From an uncultured Lachnospiraceae bacterium (GTDB taxonomy: Bacteria > Bacillota > Clostridia > Lachnospirales > Lachnospiraceae), in contig CACXFB010000052.1 of assembly GCA_902766825.1 (NCBI GenBank), positions 1 through 64,000 of the forward strand: a stretch of 64,000 bases of DNA, read 5' to 3'. The notes under the pieces were generated by a model. It worked only from the letters and a program-made list of their open reading frames with translations. It made no database searches and was not told the DNA's origin. A program made the position numbers and the translations under genes. This document shows positions 48,423 through 64,000 of the stretch, piece by piece (position 1 is the first letter of the stretch; each line of letters opens with the position of its first letter).

Positions 48423-48492
48423 GTGAAACGGGGGACGGTTCCTTGTTCCACCCTGTTTCAGTTTTGGAACGAGGAACCGTCCCCCGTTTCAC
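48423..48492. repeat. Long palindromic repeat, copy 1 (single inverted pair)
   Basis: A 27-base arm starting GTGAAACGGGGGACGGTTCC (48423 on) is matched by its reverse complement at 48466-48492 with one mismatch, around a 16-base centre. The same unit occurs as a nested double at 55486-55637. It begins on the last base of the deaD stop codon and would fold as a very strong hairpin, so it may also end the deaD message. GC content is far above the surroundings. Confidence 0.85.
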
Positions 48493-55485: not shown

Positions 55486-55637
55486 GTGAAACGGGGGACG
55501 GTTCTTCGTTCCAATGAAACAGGGGACGGTTCCTCGTTCCAAGCCAAAGCAAGGAATGTTTCTAATGACATCCTTTTTGGGAACGAGGAACCGTCCCCTG
55601 TTTCAGTTTTGGAACGAAGAACCGTCCCCCGTTTCAC
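55486..55637. repeat. Nested long palindromic repeat, copy 2 (double inverted pair)
   Basis: The outer arms (55486-55513 with 55610-55637) are perfect 28-base inverted repeats of the GTGAAACGGGGGACGGTTC unit. The inner arms (55515-55541 with 55579-55605) are close variants with an A for G change (ACAGGGGAC). The centre is about 37 bases. It encloses the ligase stop codon at 55603-55605. The unit is shared with 48423-48492. Confidence 0.9.
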
Positions 55638-56997
55638 GGAGCTTTTTTATATCTTTTTTTCCATTCCCTAATAACGGAATCTTATCAACATTCACAAACA
55701 CTACTTTTGAAAGATTAACTATTGATTTTATATACGCCTTTATATCATCAGTAATTTTTCCGTATACGGCGATTTTCTCATCAACATGTTGTACAACATA
55801 AACCTCACCTGATTTCTTATATAATAATTCTTCTATCTCAGTAAGATTTATTCTTTTCCCATTAATCTTGATATAATTATCATCTCTTCCTGTGACAAAA
55901 TAGTATCCATTCTCATCAAAATATGCTCTGTCATGGGTTGCCAGTCTTCCATTCCATTCATCGGATTTTTTTAAATCACTGTAATCAAATGCGTATCCCT
56001 GCGCAACATTATCTCCGTATACCACAAGTTCTCCCTCACAGTGAGGGGTTGTTATGATTTGTCCTTTACTATCCTGTATTGTTAGTTTTACCCCGTCTAA
56101 ACCTTTTCCTATGGTACCTATTATGTTCTCTGTAAATGCTTCATTCATAATGGATATTCTGGCAGTAGCTTCTGTCTGTCCATACATAGGATAAAACCTG
56201 CAGTTCTTTTTTTTCGAATATTCCACCATTTTTCTATATAGTTCCCTGTTTAATCTGTCACCGGCATGGGTAATCATACGCAGCCTGTCATCTACACGCT
56301 CAAACAGTCCTAACCTTCCCATATACTCAAAAGTCGTAGATACACCGGCAATAGAATTGCCACCATTCTGGTTATAGTAATCCCAAAACTTCTTTGTCAT
56401 AAAACTTTCATTTGTAAGCAAAATACACGCACCGACATAAAGGTGCGTGTTAATAATCGACAATCCGTATGTATAACTAAACGGCAGCATCGTAATTGGC
56501 CTGTGTTCACAGTCAATCTCCAACGCTTTGATAATAGCCTTTGTATTTGCTAAAAGGTTCTTATATGATAATCTGACAAGTCTTGCACTTCCTGTGGAAC
56601 CTGAAGTAGATAACAACAATGCTAGGTTTTCATCAAAATAATAATTGTCATTAAGCTCCTTTAATACATAATTGTCTTTTTCCCACACTATCTCACCATC
56701 AATCTGCCTGTCCTTTGGCATCCATATGTACCTCGGCTTATATTTATCCAATAACCCTTTTAGTAAATGAGGCGACATGGAACCATCCAGCATAAGAGGC
56801 ACTATCTGATTGTTAATGCATGAAACATATGCATACAATGTTTCAAGATTGTTGTCACAGAGTATAAATACCAGACATCTTTCATTAACAGCATGATAAA
56901 AATCCCTGCTCATTACTTCAAGTTGCAGGTAAGTATATTTATTTCCATTCTTATCAATAACAGCAATTTTGTTGCCGTAGTCACTAAAATTCCACAT
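55603..56997 (-). CDS. Stand-alone AMP-forming acyl/amino-acid ligase with repeat-encoded C-terminus
   Basis: This protein of about 464 residues belongs to the ANL superfamily. Core motifs are LSTSGSTGSARLVRLSYKN (A3, about residue 130), MLPFSYTYG, MYGQTEATARIS (A5), GELVVYGDNVAQGY, and TGRDDNYIKINGKRIN (A8). The NGKKD lysine (A10, about residue 447) is intact. It should activate a carboxylic or amino acid and load it on a carrier protein, most simply the ACP encoded upstream. The last 11 codons (RETGDGSSFQN) lie within the palindromic repeat. The ATG at 56997 fits the family start, and 57027 is an alternative that overlaps the upstream gene. It is last in its operon. Confidence 0.82.
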   Translation of the reverse strand: MWNFSDYGNKIAVIDKNGNKYTYLQLEVMSRDFYHAVNERCLVFILCDNNLETLYAYVSCINNQIVPLMLDGSMSPHLLKGLLDKYKPRYIWMPKDRQIDGEIVWEKDNYVLKELNDNYYFDENLALLLSTSGSTGSARLVRLSYKNLLANTKAIIKALEIDCEHRPITMLPFSYTYGLSIINTHLYVGACILLTNESFMTKKFWDYYNQNGGNSIAGVSTTFEYMGRLGLFERVDDRLRMITHAGDRLNRELYRKMVEYSKKKNCRFYPMYGQTEATARISIMNEAFTENIIGTIGKGLDGVKLTIQDSKGQIITTPHCEGELVVYGDNVAQGYAFDYSDLKKSDEWNGRLATHDRAYFDENGYYFVTGRDDNYIKINGKRINLTEIEELLYKKSGEVYVVQHVDEKIAVYGKITDDIKAYIKSIVNLSKVVFVNVDKIPLLGNGKKDIKKLRETGDGSSFQN

Positions 56998-57005
56998 ATT
57001 ATTTA

Positions 57006-58259
57006 TTATTCCATCCCAACAAACCATTCCACCTTATTATTCTCTCCCGACATTATAAAGTCTACAAATCGAAACTCGAACTCACAATCCCTAAGCCCAT
57101 TCTCTTTCATCAGTTCCATATATTTATTTACTACATCCTCCTGTGTCAGATAAGCATCTTCCATTACTTCATCGTCTAACACCATCTGAATTTCAAAATA
57201 GTTATAATCTTTCTGTGTTATCTGGAACTGAACAATCAGATTAACCATGTCATTCATAATCTCAATCGGCTCATACAATACATATTTATTAATCCACGTT
57301 CCGTCTTCCCTCTTTATCATTGTGTTACTCCTGCCCTCAGTAATTTTTAACACCGGACTTTTATTGCCACATTTGCAATGCAAATCATTAGATATGTAAC
57401 CTCTGTCTCCTATCATGTACCTTACAAACGGCATGACATCATTGTTAAGGGATGTAACACATATTTCTCCCTCTTTGCCATCTTCCACAATACAGTCGTT
57501 CTCCAATATTTCCACATGAACGTTGGATTCCATAACATGCATATTCCCCTGAGGACATTCATATGCAATGGAGTTCATCTCATGACAGCCATATTGGTCG
57601 GCTACACAGCATCCAAGCAGATTTTTTACTTCTTCTTTTAAAGCTCTCGTTACCATTTCTCCGGTAAATTCTATATACTTTAATGATTTTATGACTTCAT
57701 TATGATTTTTCTTTATATAGTCGAGCAACAATACCATCATCCCCGGCTGTATAGTCATCCAGACCGGTTGAAAATCATTCATCATTTCATAAATGACTTC
57801 CATGCTTTCTTCATTGATATTTCTCTTACTAAAGCCCAGCATATTTTTTATCTCAACATAACGGACACCTCTGTGTTCACTGTCAACTCCCGGTGCTGCC
57901 GTATAAAAATAACACATTCTGTCTTCTGTTTTTATCCCATAATAACGACTTCTTCTAAGCCATAATTCCGCCATGGATTTTCTGTAATCATCATGGGTCT
58001 TGTATATGTCCATAACAACTCCTGATGTACCTGAAGTAGACATTTTTCCAAGTCGCCCTGACATATAATCAATTATGTAATTAGAAGATATACATCTGCT
58101 GACATCCTTTCTGAAATCCTCTTTTCTCATAACCGGTAATCTCTTAAAATCCTCCCATGTTATGTCTGTAAAATCAGATACCGCTCCATCAAGACGATTA
58201 CAATACATAGGAACGGTTGTGTACGCATGTACTATATTTCTATGCAGTTTACTTTGCAT
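57006..58259 (-). CDS. PaaK/CapK-like adenylate-forming enzyme
   Basis: This 417-residue protein is of the phenylacetate-CoA ligase-like group. The nucleotide loop STSGTSGVVMDIYKT (about residues 72-86), IEFTGEMVT, DQYGCHEMNSIAYECPQG and RYMIGDRGYIS with a nearby CKCG match this family in order. The last motif is GENNKVEWFV, where relatives have GK.R.., so lysine is kept but its frame is altered. It may activate a second acid in the pathway. A GGAGGAA ribosome site precedes the ATG, two bases after the preceding gene's stop. Confidence 0.78.
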   Translation of the reverse strand: MQSKLHRNIVHAYTTVPMYCNRLDGAVSDFTDITWEDFKRLPVMRKEDFRKDVSRCISSNYIIDYMSGRLGKMSTSGTSGVVMDIYKTHDDYRKSMAELWLRRSRYYGIKTEDRMCYFYTAAPGVDSEHRGVRYVEIKNMLGFSKRNINEESMEVIYEMMNDFQPVWMTIQPGMMVLLLDYIKKNHNEVIKSLKYIEFTGEMVTRALKEEVKNLLGCCVADQYGCHEMNSIAYECPQGNMHVMESNVHVEILENDCIVEDGKEGEICVTSLNNDVMPFVRYMIGDRGYISNDLHCKCGNKSPVLKITEGRSNTMIKREDGTWINKYVLYEPIEIMNDMVNLIVQFQITQKDYNYFEIQMVLDDEVMEDAYLTQEDVVNKYMELMKENGLRDCEFEFRFVDFIMSGENNKVEWFVGME

Positions 58260-58261
58260 TT

Positions 58262-59818
58262 TTATTCCTCCAAATCAATTTCTTTGACTTCTATTCCCAA
58301 GCCACATATGCTTTCCCATCGCTTACATACAACACCTACATTAACATTCCCCATCAGTTCATGTCTCATCTTAACCATATACATGTCTACTCCCTCAGAA
58401 CGTTTTCCCATGTATATGTTTTTTCCATCCACAAGGACGCTCAGTTTTTCTCCTTCTCCAAGAGAAATATTAGATTTTATTTCCCTGTCTTTTATCCTTG
58501 AAACCACAATCTCATTGTGATTATTAATTGCACACATATAATCATTACCGTGCATGCTTCCGCCATCATCACCGGAAAGGAAAATTCCCGCCTGATAGTT
58601 AACATCTTCATCACGTTCCTTAACGCATGTAACGTTAAATGTCATATGCAAAGAACTGCCCTTAGGCTTGATATTAAAACTCTTTATAACTGCTTTTGGT
58701 GCATTGTCATTTTCCCACCAGTTATAATCATTACTCCCCTTAAGGATCATGATATAATTATCCATATATTTTCTTCGGATAATCGCGCCCTGCTTAGGAT
58801 CCCCTGATATCAGTTCAGAATCTTTCTCTGCCTTTTCTATGAATACATTTAGTTCCCTGTTACCTATGTCTTTTGATGCTTTGGCAACGAGAACCTCCTT
58901 AAGACAAGTCAGTGATTCTTTCTCTAACGCCTTAACATTATCAGGTACTACTATCTCACCTATAGTACGGTTATGTATATCAATAAACTGTCGTATTGTA
59001 TGTGCTCCAAAGCAAGCCTGCAATTCATCAGCCATCTTCATGCATCTGTTTTTTAATCCATCATTACCACTTGGAAGTATGTCGGCAAATTCTCTCCAGA
59101 CCGAACTGTAAACCTTGGATATATTTACAATCTTCTTTTTCATTTCAGGAAGAATCATGTTCTTACCGAGATTCTCCATATTAAAAACATTGATATATTC
59201 ATTCAATAAAATCTGCCACTTTAAGCCATAAGAGTGTTCAATTGCTTTAATATATGAATCAAGAACCACGCTCCACGAAAAATTAAATCCTTCAATTTTT
59301 TCTCTGTCAAAAACAGCAACTGACCGTTCTGTCCCATATCTTTTCCTGAAGCTTTTATTTGCTTTATCCAAATCACAGTATCTTATTTTTCTTGTATAAT
59401 ATTTCTCCTCAAAAACATCATACGGTTCATTATCCAGTATAAATACCGCATCTGACATCGCATCATAACCTTTAACAACTGCCCAATGCGGCCAATGCGT
59501 ATTCTTATAATATCTGCTCTCAACCACATCATATAAGTCCAAACCTACAACCGTAAGCTTGTCCTCCTTGATAGCAGCACATATCTTTTTATATGAAATG
59601 CTTGTGTAACTATCAGCGCATAACCTGCTTTCATCACACAGATTCACAATTTCCTCCTTAGGGAAATCATATACGCGAAATATATTTTTCTGCGCCAGGT
59701 AAATATCACCATTAGCGTGGGAATAATAACCTATCACATTAGCAATGCATCGTTCATAACAGCTGACAACATCAAGCGTATATCCGGATGTTGTATCTAT
59801 GACATCAATAACTTTCAT
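58262..59818 (-). CDS. BtrH-like N-terminal domain protein with C-terminal beta-sandwich
   Basis: This 518-residue protein has three parts. Residues 1-170 resemble the BtrH N-terminal/C39-like papain fold: a cysteine in VVSCYERCIANVIGYY (about residue 20), a histidine in THWPHWAVVKGYD (about 112-115) and an aspartate in VFILDNEPYD (about 130). The middle is helical (about 175-330). The end (about 365-515) looks like a concanavalin-type sandwich. BtrH in butirosin synthesis transfers an acyl chain from an ACP to the product amine. With an ACP gene 26 bases upstream the same logic is likely here. An AGGAG ribosome site precedes the ATG. Confidence 0.65.
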   Translation of the reverse strand: MKVIDVIDTTSGYTLDVVSCYERCIANVIGYYSHANGDIYLAQKNIFRVYDFPKEEIVNLCDESRLCADSYTSISYKKICAAIKEDKLTVVGLDLYDVVESRYYKNTHWPHWAVVKGYDAMSDAVFILDNEPYDVFEEKYYTRKIRYCDLDKANKSFRKRYGTERSVAVFDREKIEGFNFSWSVVLDSYIKAIEHSYGLKWQILLNEYINVFNMENLGKNMILPEMKKKIVNISKVYSSVWREFADILPSGNDGLKNRCMKMADELQACFGAHTIRQFIDIHNRTIGEIVVPDNVKALEKESLTCLKEVLVAKASKDIGNRELNVFIEKAEKDSELISGDPKQGAIIRRKYMDNYIMILKGSNDYNWWENDNAPKAVIKSFNIKPKGSSLHMTFNVTCVKERDEDVNYQAGIFLSGDDGGSMHGNDYMCAINNHNEIVVSRIKDREIKSNISLGEGEKLSVLVDGKNIYMGKRSEGVDMYMVKMRHELMGNVNVGVVCKRWESICGLGIEVKEIDLEE

Positions 59819-59844
59819 TAAATTACTCCTAAACCTATTAACAA

Positions 59845-60099
59845 CTATGCACTTGCTTCATTTTTTGACTTTATAAGCTCAAACAAAACATTTACGTCTT
59901 CTATGCACTCTAACATTTCCTCAGGTTCAAGTTTAATATTAAACTTACTCTCAATCTCTTCAAAGAAACTGATGATGTCTATAGAATCAAATTCGTAATC
60001 AGATATTAAATTAGTTCTTTCATCAAGGTTAATATCTGACTGTGAATCACTCATATGCTGTTTAATTATTGTTTTAATTACTTCTTTTGTGTTAATCAT
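59845..60099 (-). CDS. Acyl carrier protein
   Basis: This acidic four-helix protein of 84 residues has the phosphopantetheine serine in FDSIDIISFFEEIE (DSID, at about residue 37) and a final helix. It differs from the fatty-acid ACP type, which has DSLD, and its surroundings point to a dedicated carrier for a specialised pathway. The ATG at 60099 is preferred because AGGA is seven bases before it; an ATG two codons upstream is too close. A perfect dyad (60111-60138) lies before it. No phosphopantetheinyl transferase is in view. Confidence 0.88.
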   Translation of the reverse strand: MINTKEVIKTIIKQHMSDSQSDINLDERTNLISDYEFDSIDIISFFEEIESKFNIKLEPEEMLECIEDVNVLFELIKSKNEASA

Positions 60100-60110
60100 T
60101 TTCATATCCT

Positions 60111-60138
60111 AAATGATAAATAGGCTTAATTATCATTT
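60111..60138. repeat. Dyad between the exporter and ACP genes
   Basis: Perfect arms AAATGATAA (60111-60119) and TTATCATTT (60130-60138). It could be an mRNA hairpin or a repressor site, and no promoter is clear beside it. Confidence 0.45.
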
Positions 60139-60187
60139 ATTTCCTTTCTTATGTTCTTGTTTTACACTCATCAAACACATTGTCATT

Positions 60188-62698
60188 TTACCCTTTATTT
60201 AACAAGTCAATCGGCTTCATTTTTGACATCTTTTTCAATGGAATATATGATGAAATAATGCCTATAAACAATGAAAATACAACAGCAACAAAATATAATT
60301 TCATTTGCACTCCAATAATATTTAATTCAACATCTTTCATATATCTCATGTAAATATTGTTTATTTGATTTAATACTAATATAAACAAAAAACTACCGAT
60401 AAATAAACTAAATACTGTGAGAATAATATCTTCTACAACAAATATTAACAATGCCTCTTTCATTTTCATTCCCATGGTTCTTAATATACCAATTTTGCGA
60501 CTTTGGTCTTTAACAGAATATGACATAAAGGATATAATGAAAAATATCGCAATACCCATACAAATGCACGTCAAAGACAACAGCAGTTTATGTATATTCT
60601 TAACAAAGTTGTCAAAATCATAAATATAGCCACATCCTTTTTCATCTAATTTACAATTTATTTCATCGATTGATTCAACAAGCTTTTCCTTATCATCTCC
60701 TAGCATTATTATCGTTTCATCAAACGCATAATAACGACAGTAATTTTCTTTCATTTTCTGATAAACATTGTTTTTGACAAGCACGCTGGCATCAACTTCA
60801 TTTTCCTCTGAAAAATTATACACTCCAACAACTTTAATTCCTTTAGGAAAATAATCATATATATTCATGTAGTCAAATGCATTATTGTATTTCTTATCAT
60901 TTAAATTAATAAGGTTTATTTCCTTTATATTTTCTTCTTCTGAATCTTCAATATCATACCCTAACGCATTAAATACATAATTAGCAACCATAATTTCATT
61001 TTCTTTTTCAGGCAATCTTCCCCAAACCAAATTCGAAGAATTCAGGATATCCGCTGAACCATATTTCATTTTAGATTCCTTGTATGGTCGCAAGGCACGG
61101 TATTGTGTCAAATCTGCCGCATTAATATCTAAATACTTTAAGTTATCAACCAACCATTCTACAAAGCCTTCATTGCCAATAAGATAACCAGATTCGTCGT
61201 ATCTATCGATTTTTATATCAGACTTTTCAATTATGCCCGATATTCTAAGCTTCAAATCATAATAAAATAATGATGATCCAATCAATTCATTGTATTTTTT
61301 TTCACTAAATAATTTGTCTGCCACAACAGAATCAATTAATATTTCGTTACTTTCAACTGGATAATTTCCAATAATGCTTATATCATATTCTTCATAATCC
61401 CCAATAATAATCGGAATATCATAGGGTTCTGACTCATCTTCATCTACAACTATCCAATTTAAATACATTACATTTCTCATATGCATATATGGCATTATCT
61501 CTTCAATGTCATTTCTCAATTTTTTCCCTGAATTACATCTTTCCTCAATCTTATTTTCAAATATATCTTCATATTCCGTTTCTCTGTAAACAATTGAATA
61601 TTTTAAATTTCTTTCCTCGAGATATTTCCCCATATTTTGCTTGTAATCATAATTTATAATTTGAGACGATACAAATACAAGTGCCAATGAAAGTGCAAAC
61701 AATGCTAACGTAAAAAACAATCGAATCTTTCGTTGTTTAAGACTATTGTAAGCCATTTTTATTATTTCTTTTATTCTCAAACCAGTTTTATTATAGAATT
61801 GTGTATTTTTATTATTCTTTACACTTTCACAACCTTCAGTTCTTTTTAAATTCACTTTTATACCAACATTAAAATCAACCTCATCTTTTTCTTTCAAATC
61901 CATTTTAAATAATATTAATCGCACAAAATCCACTATTCTTTTATCATCTAAAGAATTTATCATAATCTGTTCTTCAAGTTCTTTAATATCCAAAATAATA
62001 TTATTTACTTCATATCCATCTTTAATATTGTTTCTAATATCATCTTCTATTCGTCCATTTTTTAAAACTATCACCCTATCAGCATATTTATAAGAGTTAT
62101 CTTTATCATGAGATGCAAGAACTATCAAACAATCCTTTTTAAATTCTGATAAAATTCTAAAGATATTTTCGCTATTACCAGCATCAAGATTTCCGGTCGG
62201 TTCATCTAGAATTAACACATCCGGTCTCTTAATAATTCCTCTTGCAATTGCTACCCTTTGTCTCTGCCCAGAGCTAAGCTGCCATATTTTTCTTTCCCCC
62301 ATCCCCCTCATTCCAATCCTATCTAGAATATCATTAACTCTGTTTGCTATTTCCTTTTCATCAACCCTTAGCATTCTCAATGGTAAAGCAATATTATTAT
62401 ATACATCCATTTCTTCAAGAAGATTACTCTCTTGAAATACCACTCCTATTTTTTTCAGTCTATAATTATCCCACTCCTTTTGATTATAATTTGATATACA
62501 TTCATTGCAATTATATATTTCTCCCTCAGTTGGCGAATCAAGACCTGAAATCATATTCAAAAGTGTTGATTTTCCTGAGCCACTTATTCCTAGCAAAACA
62601 ATAAAACCATTTTCCAAATTCATATTTATATTATTCAAGGCATACACATTTTCATTGTTTTTTACTTCATACTTTCTTGTTACATTTTTAATTAACAT
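60188..62698 (-). CDS. Fused ABC exporter: MacB-like ATPase and FtsX-type permease
   Basis: This protein is about 836 residues. The N-terminal ATPase has Walker A GISGSGKST (about residue 35), signature QLSSGQRQRVAIARGI (about 135) and Walker B LILDEPTGNLD, of the MacB/LolD class. A charged linker follows, then a helix (about 330-350), a large exported domain (about 350-690) and three C-terminal helices in FtsX style, ending KKMSKMKPIDLLNKG. Such fused pumps export lipids, peptides or small products. ATG 62698 follows GGAGAATG, while 62713 and GTG 62767 lack a site. The gene is more AT-rich than its neighbours to the left. Confidence 0.85.
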   Translation of the reverse strand: MLIKNVTRKYEVKNNENVYALNNINMNLENGFIVLLGISGSGKSTLLNMISGLDSPTEGEIYNCNECISNYNQKEWDNYRLKKIGVVFQESNLLEEMDVYNNIALPLRMLRVDEKEIANRVNDILDRIGMRGMGERKIWQLSSGQRQRVAIARGIIKRPDVLILDEPTGNLDAGNSENIFRILSEFKKDCLIVLASHDKDNSYKYADRVIVLKNGRIEDDIRNNIKDGYEVNNIILDIKELEEQIMINSLDDKRIVDFVRLILFKMDLKEKDEVDFNVGIKVNLKRTEGCESVKNNKNTQFYNKTGLRIKEIIKMAYNSLKQRKIRLFFTLALFALSLALVFVSSQIINYDYKQNMGKYLEERNLKYSIVYRETEYEDIFENKIEERCNSGKKLRNDIEEIMPYMHMRNVMYLNWIVVDEDESEPYDIPIIIGDYEEYDISIIGNYPVESNEILIDSVVADKLFSEKKYNELIGSSLFYYDLKLRISGIIEKSDIKIDRYDESGYLIGNEGFVEWLVDNLKYLDINAADLTQYRALRPYKESKMKYGSADILNSSNLVWGRLPEKENEIMVANYVFNALGYDIEDSEEENIKEINLINLNDKKYNNAFDYMNIYDYFPKGIKVVGVYNFSEENEVDASVLVKNNVYQKMKENYCRYYAFDETIIMLGDDKEKLVESIDEINCKLDEKGCGYIYDFDNFVKNIHKLLLSLTCICMGIAIFFIISFMSYSVKDQSRKIGILRTMGMKMKEALLIFVVEDIILTVFSLFIGSFLFILVLNQINNIYMRYMKDVELNIIGVQMKLYFVAVVFSLFIGIISSYIPLKKMSKMKPIDLLNKG

Positions 62699-62770: not shown

Positions 62771-63385
62771 TTAATTATTTGAATCATAACACCTAACTAT
62801 AAACTCAACAATAAAAGATACCGGTCGTTCTTTTACATTATTCTCTTCTGCTATTTGTCTATCCTCTATCGTATATATACCACACCACTCTGTCCTCTCT
62901 CCCTCAAACAACAAATTTCCCACACATAAATCTTCCTCACGTATTGACGAATAATCTATTATTTCATATTCAGCCAATACTTTTTTTTGTCTTGTTCCGA
63001 GGTAAAAAAAACCAAACTTATCATCATTATCTATTTTGTTTTTTATGACTTTATACTGTTCATCTTTAAGTTCTACACCACCATCCAAATCATTAATAAT
63101 AAGTACAGAATATTCTTTATCTGTATTAAGAGCCTCATAAGAAATATCATCAACTATTTTTATCTTTAGTTCATCTCTCCAATACAATTCTTTTCCCATC
63201 CAAAATATATCTGTTGGCATTTTATCATTCAACACATCAATAGCCTTGTCATAGTTATCATTAAATTCTTTCTTTGAATACGTCGATGATTTAATTATAC
63301 CAAATTTAGACAATACCCCCATCACAACAACTAGCAACAGCAACACACCACTTATTAACAATAATAATTTTAGTTTTCTTTCCAT
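62771..63385 (-). CDS. Membrane-anchored protein of unknown function
   Basis: This 204-residue protein has a basic start, one hydrophobic helix (about residues 5-27) and an exported domain with many Asp, Glu and Lys. It has strand pairs such as YSVLIINDLDGG and KFGFFYLGTRQ. There are three cysteines, two near the C-terminal third (WCGIYTIE and RCYDS). I find no family. It lies between the exporter and the gene at the edge with gaps of 20-70 bases, so it is probably part of the operon. The base composition is AT-rich like the exporter gene. Confidence 0.5.
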   Translation of the reverse strand: MERKLKLLLLISGVLLLLVVVMGVLSKFGIIKSSTYSKKEFNDNYDKAIDVLNDKMPTDIFWMGKELYWRDELKIKIVDDISYEALNTDKEYSVLIINDLDGGVELKDEQYKVIKNKIDNDDKFGFFYLGTRQKKVLAEYEIIDYSSIREEDLCVGNLLFEGERTEWCGIYTIEDRQIAEENNVKERPVSFIVEFIVRCYDSNN

Positions 63386-63407: not shown

Positions 63408-64000
63408 TTATTTAAACACCCATTTATAAGAGCCTCGTCCTTTTTCAGAGCCTCTAGACACACTATTAGGTCTCGCATCCTCGCAACCCGCATATGCAAA
63501 ATTACTATTGAACGAAAACGTCAAAGCTTGTTTTTCACATGCATAATATTTCAACATTGCAACTTGAGTAGATGTGTTTCTAACATATGTATTCTTTGTA
63601 GAAGAACCACTAATAGATTTTTCCGGCTTATAATTATATATAAATGATGCACACTTTTTTGATTGTTGAATATCCGCTTCCATTTCCAGTTGTTTTTTTT
63701 CAACTTGCGTTGACATACTTACCGACGACGAAGGCCCACTTCCATTAATACTAGCACCAAATCCGATGGTCCATTTAGTGCTTTCTGGAACATTTTTTGG
63801 CTCCCAGTCAATTATTTCAGCAGATGAATTTAAAGCTATATTTACTTTTAAATACTCGCTTACCCCAAATATTTCAGGGTCATGAATATATAGTTCTTCG
63901 CAACCAAATGTATCAACATTCTTGAACGGCTCCATCATCATTTTGACAACTACAACATGCTCATATTTTTTCTTATATTCCACATCACTATTTATTACCG
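63408..64000 (-). CDS. Unknown strand-rich protein, 5' end beyond the window
   Basis: At least 197 codons stay open to the right edge, so the start is not in view; the GTG at 63983 is probably internal. The protein is rich in Ser, Thr and Asn in alternating patterns (GASINGSGPSSSVSMSTQ), with a short helix (EKKQLEMEADIQQSKK) and three cysteines. The pattern recalls secreted beta-rich proteins, including pore formers, but there is no firm match. It is the first visible gene of the carrier-protein operon. Confidence 0.45.
   Translation of the reverse strand, partial: VINSDVEYKKKYEHVVVVKMMMEPFKNVDTFGCEELYIHDPEIFGVSEYLKVNIALNSSAEIIDWEPKNVPESTKWTIGFGASINGSGPSSSVSMSTQVEKKQLEMEADIQQSKKCASFIYNYKPEKSISGSSTKNTYVRNTSTQVAMLKYYACEKQALTFSFNSNFAYAGCEDARPNSVSRGSEKGRGSYKWVFK

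Follow-up and report, generated by a model that had tools for sequence, protein, structure and literature searches.

A seven-gene cluster at the right end of the contig

The window, by which we mean the whole 64,000 bp stretch analysed here (positions 1 to 64,000 of contig CACXFB010000052.1, from an uncultured Lachnospiraceae bacterium), ends with a cluster of seven genes, all on the minus strand (Table 1). Four of these, referred to here as the module, encode a free-standing acyl carrier protein (ACP), a BtrH-like acyltransferase candidate, a PaaK/CapK-like adenylate-forming enzyme and a stand-alone AMP ligase; the other three, referred to as the exoprotein cassette, encode a secreted protein, a protein with a single transmembrane (TM) segment and a fused ABC ATPase/FtsX permease (ABC-FtsX). 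We think it probable that these are two units that recur together, a thiotemplated acyl-transfer module independent of nonribosomal peptide synthetases (NRPSs) and an exoprotein cassette organised like a bacteriocin operon.

A sequence-only reading had described five genes on one strand, from ABC-FtsX to the AMP ligase, and both the open reading frame (ORF) coordinates and Pfam agree with it; the motifs are intact, and Pfam and NCBIfam together recognise the ACP, the two adenylate-forming enzymes and the fused ABC-FtsX. Consecutive genes in this set are separated by 82, 26, 2 and -22 bp, and because of the last three spacings the ACP, BtrH-like, PaaK-like and ligase genes most likely form one operon, with the 82 bp ahead of the ACP gene leaving open a separate transcript for the module. 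Promoter and terminator scans of the locus gave nothing exceeding chance.

Table 1. Genes of the cluster, in the order in which they are discussed
Gene product	Coordinates	Strand	Features
Acyl carrier protein, 86 aa	59845..60105	-	4'-phosphopantetheine site Ser41 in EFDSID (codon 59985-59983); Pfam PP-binding E 3.4e-7
BtrH-like papain-fold acyltransferase candidate, 518 aa	58262..59818	-	Cys20, His111 and Asp129 at codons 59761, 59488 and 59434
PaaK/CapK-like adenylate-forming enzyme, 417 aa	57006..58259	-	STSGTSG, DQYGCHE, C-terminal Lys409; Pfam AMP-binding E 7e-9
Stand-alone AMP ligase, 474 aa	55603..57027	-	STSGSTG, MYGQTE, GRDDNYIKINGKRI, NGK; Pfam AMP-binding E 3e-34
Fused ABC ATPase/FtsX permease	60188..62698	-	ATG at 62698; ORF open from 62767; Pfam ABC_tran E 3e-32 and FtsX E 3e-13
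Single-TM protein, 204 aa, exoprotein cassette gene 2	62771..63385	-	32% identity to L148 protein
Secreted protein, 276 aa, exoprotein cassette gene 1	63408..64000 in window, on to 64238	-	N-terminal signal-like segment, judged by eye

The same reading held that this is not a standard NRPS, polyketide synthase or ribosomally synthesised and post-translationally modified peptide locus. Pfam finds no condensation or ketosynthase domain among the seven genes, and no recognisable precursor peptide gene is visible at the locus; neither Pfam nor NCBIfam finds a maturase among the locus genes, the ACP matches TIGR04069 below the cut-off (E 0.014), and the contig ends upstream. A defence-system library yields only generic ABC ATPase matches, and no description of such a locus type was found among open-licence papers.

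Conservation of the module

Related loci were sought by five routes, using the BtrH-like protein (299 family genomes), a two-sequence BtrH profile (order and class samples), an alignment of the ligase (84,980 species genomes), an alignment of the PaaK-like enzyme (397 family genomes) and, as the fifth, the families of the TM proteins (260 family genomes) and of the exoproteins (250 family genomes); the samples represent part of the Lachnospiraceae. Ten loci (prefix L, with genomes given the prefix G) encode a member of the PaaK clade: the window, L009 and L147 (G181), L011 with L172 (G124), L039 (G107), L055 and L145 (G1034), L146 (G096), and L148 and L149 (G016). All ten, spread over the window genome and six other Lachnospiraceae genomes, pair the PaaK clade with an AMP ligase; the L147 ligase is from another clade, and that of L149 lies ~8.6 kb from the PaaK gene. 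An ACP is present in seven of the ten loci (window, L009, L011/L172, L145, L147, L148 and L149), as is a BtrH_N-like protein (window, L009, L011, L039, L145, L148 and L149).

As a control, a BtrH-like gene is found in 0 of the 79 other ligase loci (the 80 nearest ligase relatives minus L055), whereas three of the six loci found without using BtrH contain one (3/6 vs 0/79, p ~2e-4, hypergeometric). The Fisher value for BtrH with all loci is 1.7e-8, which overstates the association, as BtrH was itself the route to L009, L011 and L039. The sequence-only reading is supported in that the four cytosolic proteins form a conserved set. Since the order of the module genes differs among loci, the association does not reflect simple shared ancestry of one DNA stretch.

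Full-length relatives of the BtrH-like protein are rare among the family genomes searched, as is the PaaK clade (7/397), and we reject the idea that the module is conserved throughout the Lachnospiraceae. The AMP ligase is likewise rejected as a marker for the module, as among its 80 nearest relatives in the 84,980 genomes only L055 has the PaaK clade.

Directly ahead of the module in L009 (11246-13817, G181) there is a sensor-kinase-like gene together with a response-regulator-like gene whose product has a Spo0A-like C-terminus, and LytTR-type regulators are present in L146 and L148. Judging by these neighbouring genes, control of the module by population density is possible.

The carrier protein and BtrH-like acyltransferase candidate

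The phosphopantetheine serine is retained in all eight aligned ACPs of related loci. A single AcpS-type phosphopantetheinyl transferase match, of small AcpS size, was detected in the genome, and as this is the sole such match the ACP must be activated by this enzyme.

The sequence-only reading also assigned the product of the next gene, 26 bp downstream, to a BtrH-like family with a Cys-His-Asp set. The family assignment is carried by its relatives, 9/12 of which match Pfam BtrH_N in alignment (E 0.01 or better; best 5e-11), and a profile of the window protein and one relative retrieves further BtrH_N-like proteins from the order and class samples. The window protein is 26% identical over its full length to a G181 protein, and it scores below the Pfam cut-off against C39_2 (E 0.05). 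In the 12-relative alignment the histidine is invariant, the cysteine and the aspartate are each present in 11, and the papain-fold order Cys-His-Asp is kept, so that the proposed catalytic set is conserved in most relatives. The C-terminal ~170 residues form a second domain with no Pfam match, which is common to the L009, L011 and L145 proteins and to one on contig C18 of the window genome. There are no relatives of the BtrH-like protein in viral contigs, and a PDB sequence search with the family gave no useful match.

The contig C18 protein is part of a second BtrH-like locus (L003, 6402-14999) with its own ACP. The likely loader there is a seryl-tRNA-synthetase-like protein, and the combination of BtrH-like protein and ACP therefore recurs with different loaders. 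At this locus the N-terminal part of the BtrH-like protein is in another frame and the seryl-tRNA-synthetase-like protein is spread over two ORFs; in all there are three apparent breaks of frame, which point to decay or misassembly. Further genes are nucleotidyltransferase-like, histidine-phosphatase-like and HPr-kinase-like, or encode ABC-2 permeases, a split ABC ATPase and a CYTH protein. A different context is seen at L010 (8784-13436, G053), where an NRPS has a BtrH_N-like N-terminus with tyrosine at the catalytic histidine position; this domain may be non-catalytic, serving for docking or resembling a condensation domain.

The two adenylate-forming enzymes

An ACP gene adjoins the ligase gene in 53 of the 80 loci of window-ligase relatives, which supports loading of the ACP by the ligase, and the gene neighbourhoods support the view that pairing with an ACP is a general habit of this ligase group. 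The same family marks a widespread surface-sugar-like locus (L055-L134, 80 loci) in metagenome-assembled genomes of Clostridia, Spirochaetes, Synergistetes and Proteobacteria. Most relatives of the AMP ligase are in loci with LuxE- and LuxC-like proteins, short-chain dehydrogenase/reductase (SDR) enzymes, an ACP and transketolase halves, and the module could thus be read as a relict or variant of a LuxE/LuxC-type surface-glycan pathway, whose loci have a related ligase, an ACP and a LuxE-like member of the PaaK superfamily. However, the module loci examined contain no reductase, SDR or sugar gene, and the 78 ligases of LuxE/LuxC-type loci form one clade (support 0.96) that excludes all module ligases. 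The PaaK clade also differs from LuxE, scoring at most ~48 bits in LuxE/LuxC-type loci, and we consider such an origin very unlikely.

The nearest solved structures to the PaaK-like enzyme are PaaK (4r1l), AjiA1 (6wuq) and a PaaK-like ligase (6siw). PaaK-like enzymes such as AjiA1 and 6siw form ester or amide bonds, and by analogy with these precedents a role in a second activation is possible. No plasmid relative of the PaaK-like enzyme exceeds 28% identity among the matches listed.

The genes downstream of the module, past a GGGGACGGTTC repeat, are apparently unrelated to it. Copies of an inverted GGGGACGGTTC repeat are located at window positions 48431-48484 and 55494-55629; the array at the second position reaches into the AMP-ligase gene at its 3' end, where it encodes the last residues of the ligase.

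The exoprotein cassette and the role of ABC-FtsX

The cassette consists of genes for a secreted protein of ~270 aa, a one-TM protein and ABC-FtsX, and this three-gene order is present in the window, L148, L166, L168 and L169. In L166, L168, L169 and L171 the TM gene is flanked by an exoprotein gene of the window's 276-aa family on one side and a full-length homologue of ABC-FtsX on the other. Because the cassette occurs at these loci without a module nearby, we assign ABC-FtsX to the cassette. It adjoins the module in the window and in L148. The 204-aa TM family is found in 7/260 family genomes, and its representation in PaaK-clade genomes (3/6) exceeds that in others (4/254; p 2e-4, a value that assumes overlap of the two genome samples). 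The window exoprotein belongs to a family whose alignment has seven members and has no Pfam, NCBIfam or PDB match. In L171 (14500-17668, G188) several tandem one-TM copies lie beside one exoprotein gene and one ABC-FtsX gene, a pattern to be expected of an immunity-type gene that has been duplicated.

In the sequence-only reading ABC-FtsX was the exporter of the module's product, and a single pathway can be constructed in which the four enzymes make a small product that the adjacent ABC-FtsX exports. All of the genes are co-directional within ~8.6 kb, the same seven gene kinds are present in L148, and in L147 ABC and FtsX genes directly precede those for the ACP and PaaK. Nonetheless, module-free genomes also have ABC-FtsX in the company of the exoprotein and TM genes, and the pair of ligases is present in L055 and L039 without an adjoining ABC gene. 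Proteins of the FtsX type are also often components of immunity, lipoprotein or signalling systems. We therefore think a single pathway unlikely, and a dedicated exporter role for ABC-FtsX is weakened by the module-free cassettes. The label of exporter was an interpretation of the fused protein, and the two genes upstream (62771-63385 and 63408-64238) belong with it. The pathway as originally drawn holds in its core, and the exoprotein cassette should take the place of the export step.

Secreted-protein genes accompanying the module

Genes for secreted proteins of unrelated families, their exported status judged by eye from signal segments, lie beside or between the module genes in most module loci with adequate flanks; these were missed in the sequence-only reading. 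Exoprotein family A, which has DUF4179-like TM partners, is found next to the module genes, or in among them, in L011, L055 and L145, and does not align with the window type, family B, outside the signal region. NCBIfam and Pfam searches of the exoproteins gave no match. Further small secreted or lipoprotein genes are present in L039 and L147, and lipoprotein or secreted-protein genes in tandem runs, several of them mutually similar, adjoin the module in L149 (401-8785) and L148 (6367-9109), both in G016. The partner exoproteins change while the ligase pair stays, and this is the main new observation.

Because the partners vary as the ligase pair persists, we retain the reading that the secreted protein encoded nearby, or else its TM partner, is acylated by the module ahead of export. 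The BtrH-like protein would then act as an ACP:protein acyltransferase, and the modification would be activating or anchoring. This would account for same-strand exoprotein genes beside or between module genes, as in L055 (in the order PaaK, TM, exoprotein, ligase), L145, L011, L148 and the window, and family A was found in one of the 250 family genomes, G124, which is a module carrier. Against it, the exoproteins of the different loci make up at least two non-aligning families in which no common acceptor motif is seen, family B occurs without the module, and a protein with a signal peptide would be exported unfolded, with little time for acylation in the cytosol. On balance we judge it unlikely, and quite unlikely in its most specific form, that an acyltransferase of the papain fold, dependent on a carrier protein and served by two dedicated ligases, acylates a Sec-secreted antibacterial exoprotein after translation, as a system of gut Lachnospiraceae in which the exoproteins are exchangeable.

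A model of two associated units

We thus favour the reading of two units, an acyl-transfer module and an exoprotein cassette. The AMP ligase would adenylate a carboxylic acid and load it onto the ACP, from which the BtrH-like protein would take the acyl group at its Cys20-His111-Asp129 site and pass it to an amine. The PaaK-like enzyme may activate a second acid or close a further amide or ester bond, giving a small acyl conjugate as the product of the module. The cassette protein would leave the cell by way of its signal peptide, with the TM/ABC pair protecting the producer or assisting release, and both units may share a single purpose, whether competition or signalling. Gene order, motifs and co-occurrence, together with the independence of the cassette, can be read directly from the sequences; the chemical steps, the way in which the ligases share the work and the common purpose are what we infer from them.

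Several observations weigh against this model. The window BtrH-like protein falls below the gathering cut-off for Pfam BtrH_N (E 0.12, 13.0 bits, cut-off 29.7), which is why its assignment rests on the relatives, and an AlphaFold model of the single sequence is uninformative (pLDDT 32.6). The BtrH_N-like proteins of L148 and L149, as read from their sequences, lack the N-terminal catalytic cysteine, so the transfer step is not universal. There are no ACP or BtrH genes in the stretches of L055 and L146 that were read, and no visible ACP in L039. The distances among PaaK proteins and among ligases are weakly correlated (r 0.35, a value reached by 350/5000 permutations), and the contig ends at 64350, so that the locus is readable upstream only that far.

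Taking the comparative data together, we regard the module as real and rare, and as a new form of acyl transfer that depends on a carrier protein, is independent of NRPSs and has a link to exoprotein genes. Chemistry based on a free-standing ACP and a BtrH-like protein is known from very few pathways; here it recurs among gut anaerobes in the form of a compact module, which genome-mining rules for NRPS, polyketide or ribosomal peptide loci would probably overlook. Its interleaving with exoprotein genes ties the acyl chemistry of small molecules to exoproteins in a manner open to testing, and hints at a route, so far undescribed, by which extracellular weapons or signals are made or armed; the ACP provides a direct handle on the substrate through mass spectrometry.

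Relationships to known systems

The logic of ACP, ligase and BtrH-like protein set out in the sequence-only reading matches that of both butirosin and closthioamide biosynthesis. In the former, BtrH is an acyl-ACP:aminoglycoside acyltransferase that moves an acyl group from the ACP BtrI to an amine. The window likewise has the gene for a papain-like Cys-His-Asp transferase beside that for a free-standing carrier protein, and relatives of the window protein match BtrH_N, although the window protein is itself sub-threshold and has an extra C-terminal domain. It also differs from the butirosin system in having no aminoglycoside genes, in using an AMP ligase and a PaaK-like enzyme as the putative loaders, and in its adjoining secreted-protein genes. 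BtrH_N proteins are classed near the C39 and C70 papain-like families (PMC10318531).

In closthioamide biosynthesis CtaG is assigned the role of moving 4-hydroxybenzoate off CtaH and onto a CtaE-bound chain (PMC6772006). We recognised this cluster by gene content in genome G764, where the genes for CtaG, CtaH (the carrier) and CtaI (the ligase) are adjacent. Both systems place a papain-like transferase, a carrier protein and an AMP ligase side by side in an NRPS-independent setting in an anaerobic clostridium, and the histidine and aspartate of CtaG align with those of the window BtrH-like family (hhalign E 0.0025, with a probability of only 11.7). However, CtaG matches Peptidase_C39 rather than BtrH_N, the ligases are 23% identical, and the window locus has no transglutaminase and a PaaK-like enzyme instead. 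Between 55603 and the contig end at 64350 there is no thioamide synthetase (AANH), ATP-grasp loader or second carrier.

Amino acid:carrier-protein ligase loci encode a seryl-tRNA-synthetase-like protein with an ACP (PMC2922099). The locus on contig C18 of the window genome and one in G725 resemble these, combining an ACP and a BtrH-like protein with such a loader, whereas the module has a different activating enzyme and lacks the CYTH, ABC-2 and nucleotidyltransferase neighbours.

In lactococcin 972 operons the gene for a secreted protein comes first, and the genes after it have presumed but unproven roles in immunity and transport (PMC11796350, PMC4055356). The window exoprotein, at ~270 aa, has no link to these in any library searched, and the ABC and FtsX parts of the cassette are fused in one protein. 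The likeness is in layout only, and consists of the same three-gene order of Sec-type secreted protein, membrane protein and ABC protein.

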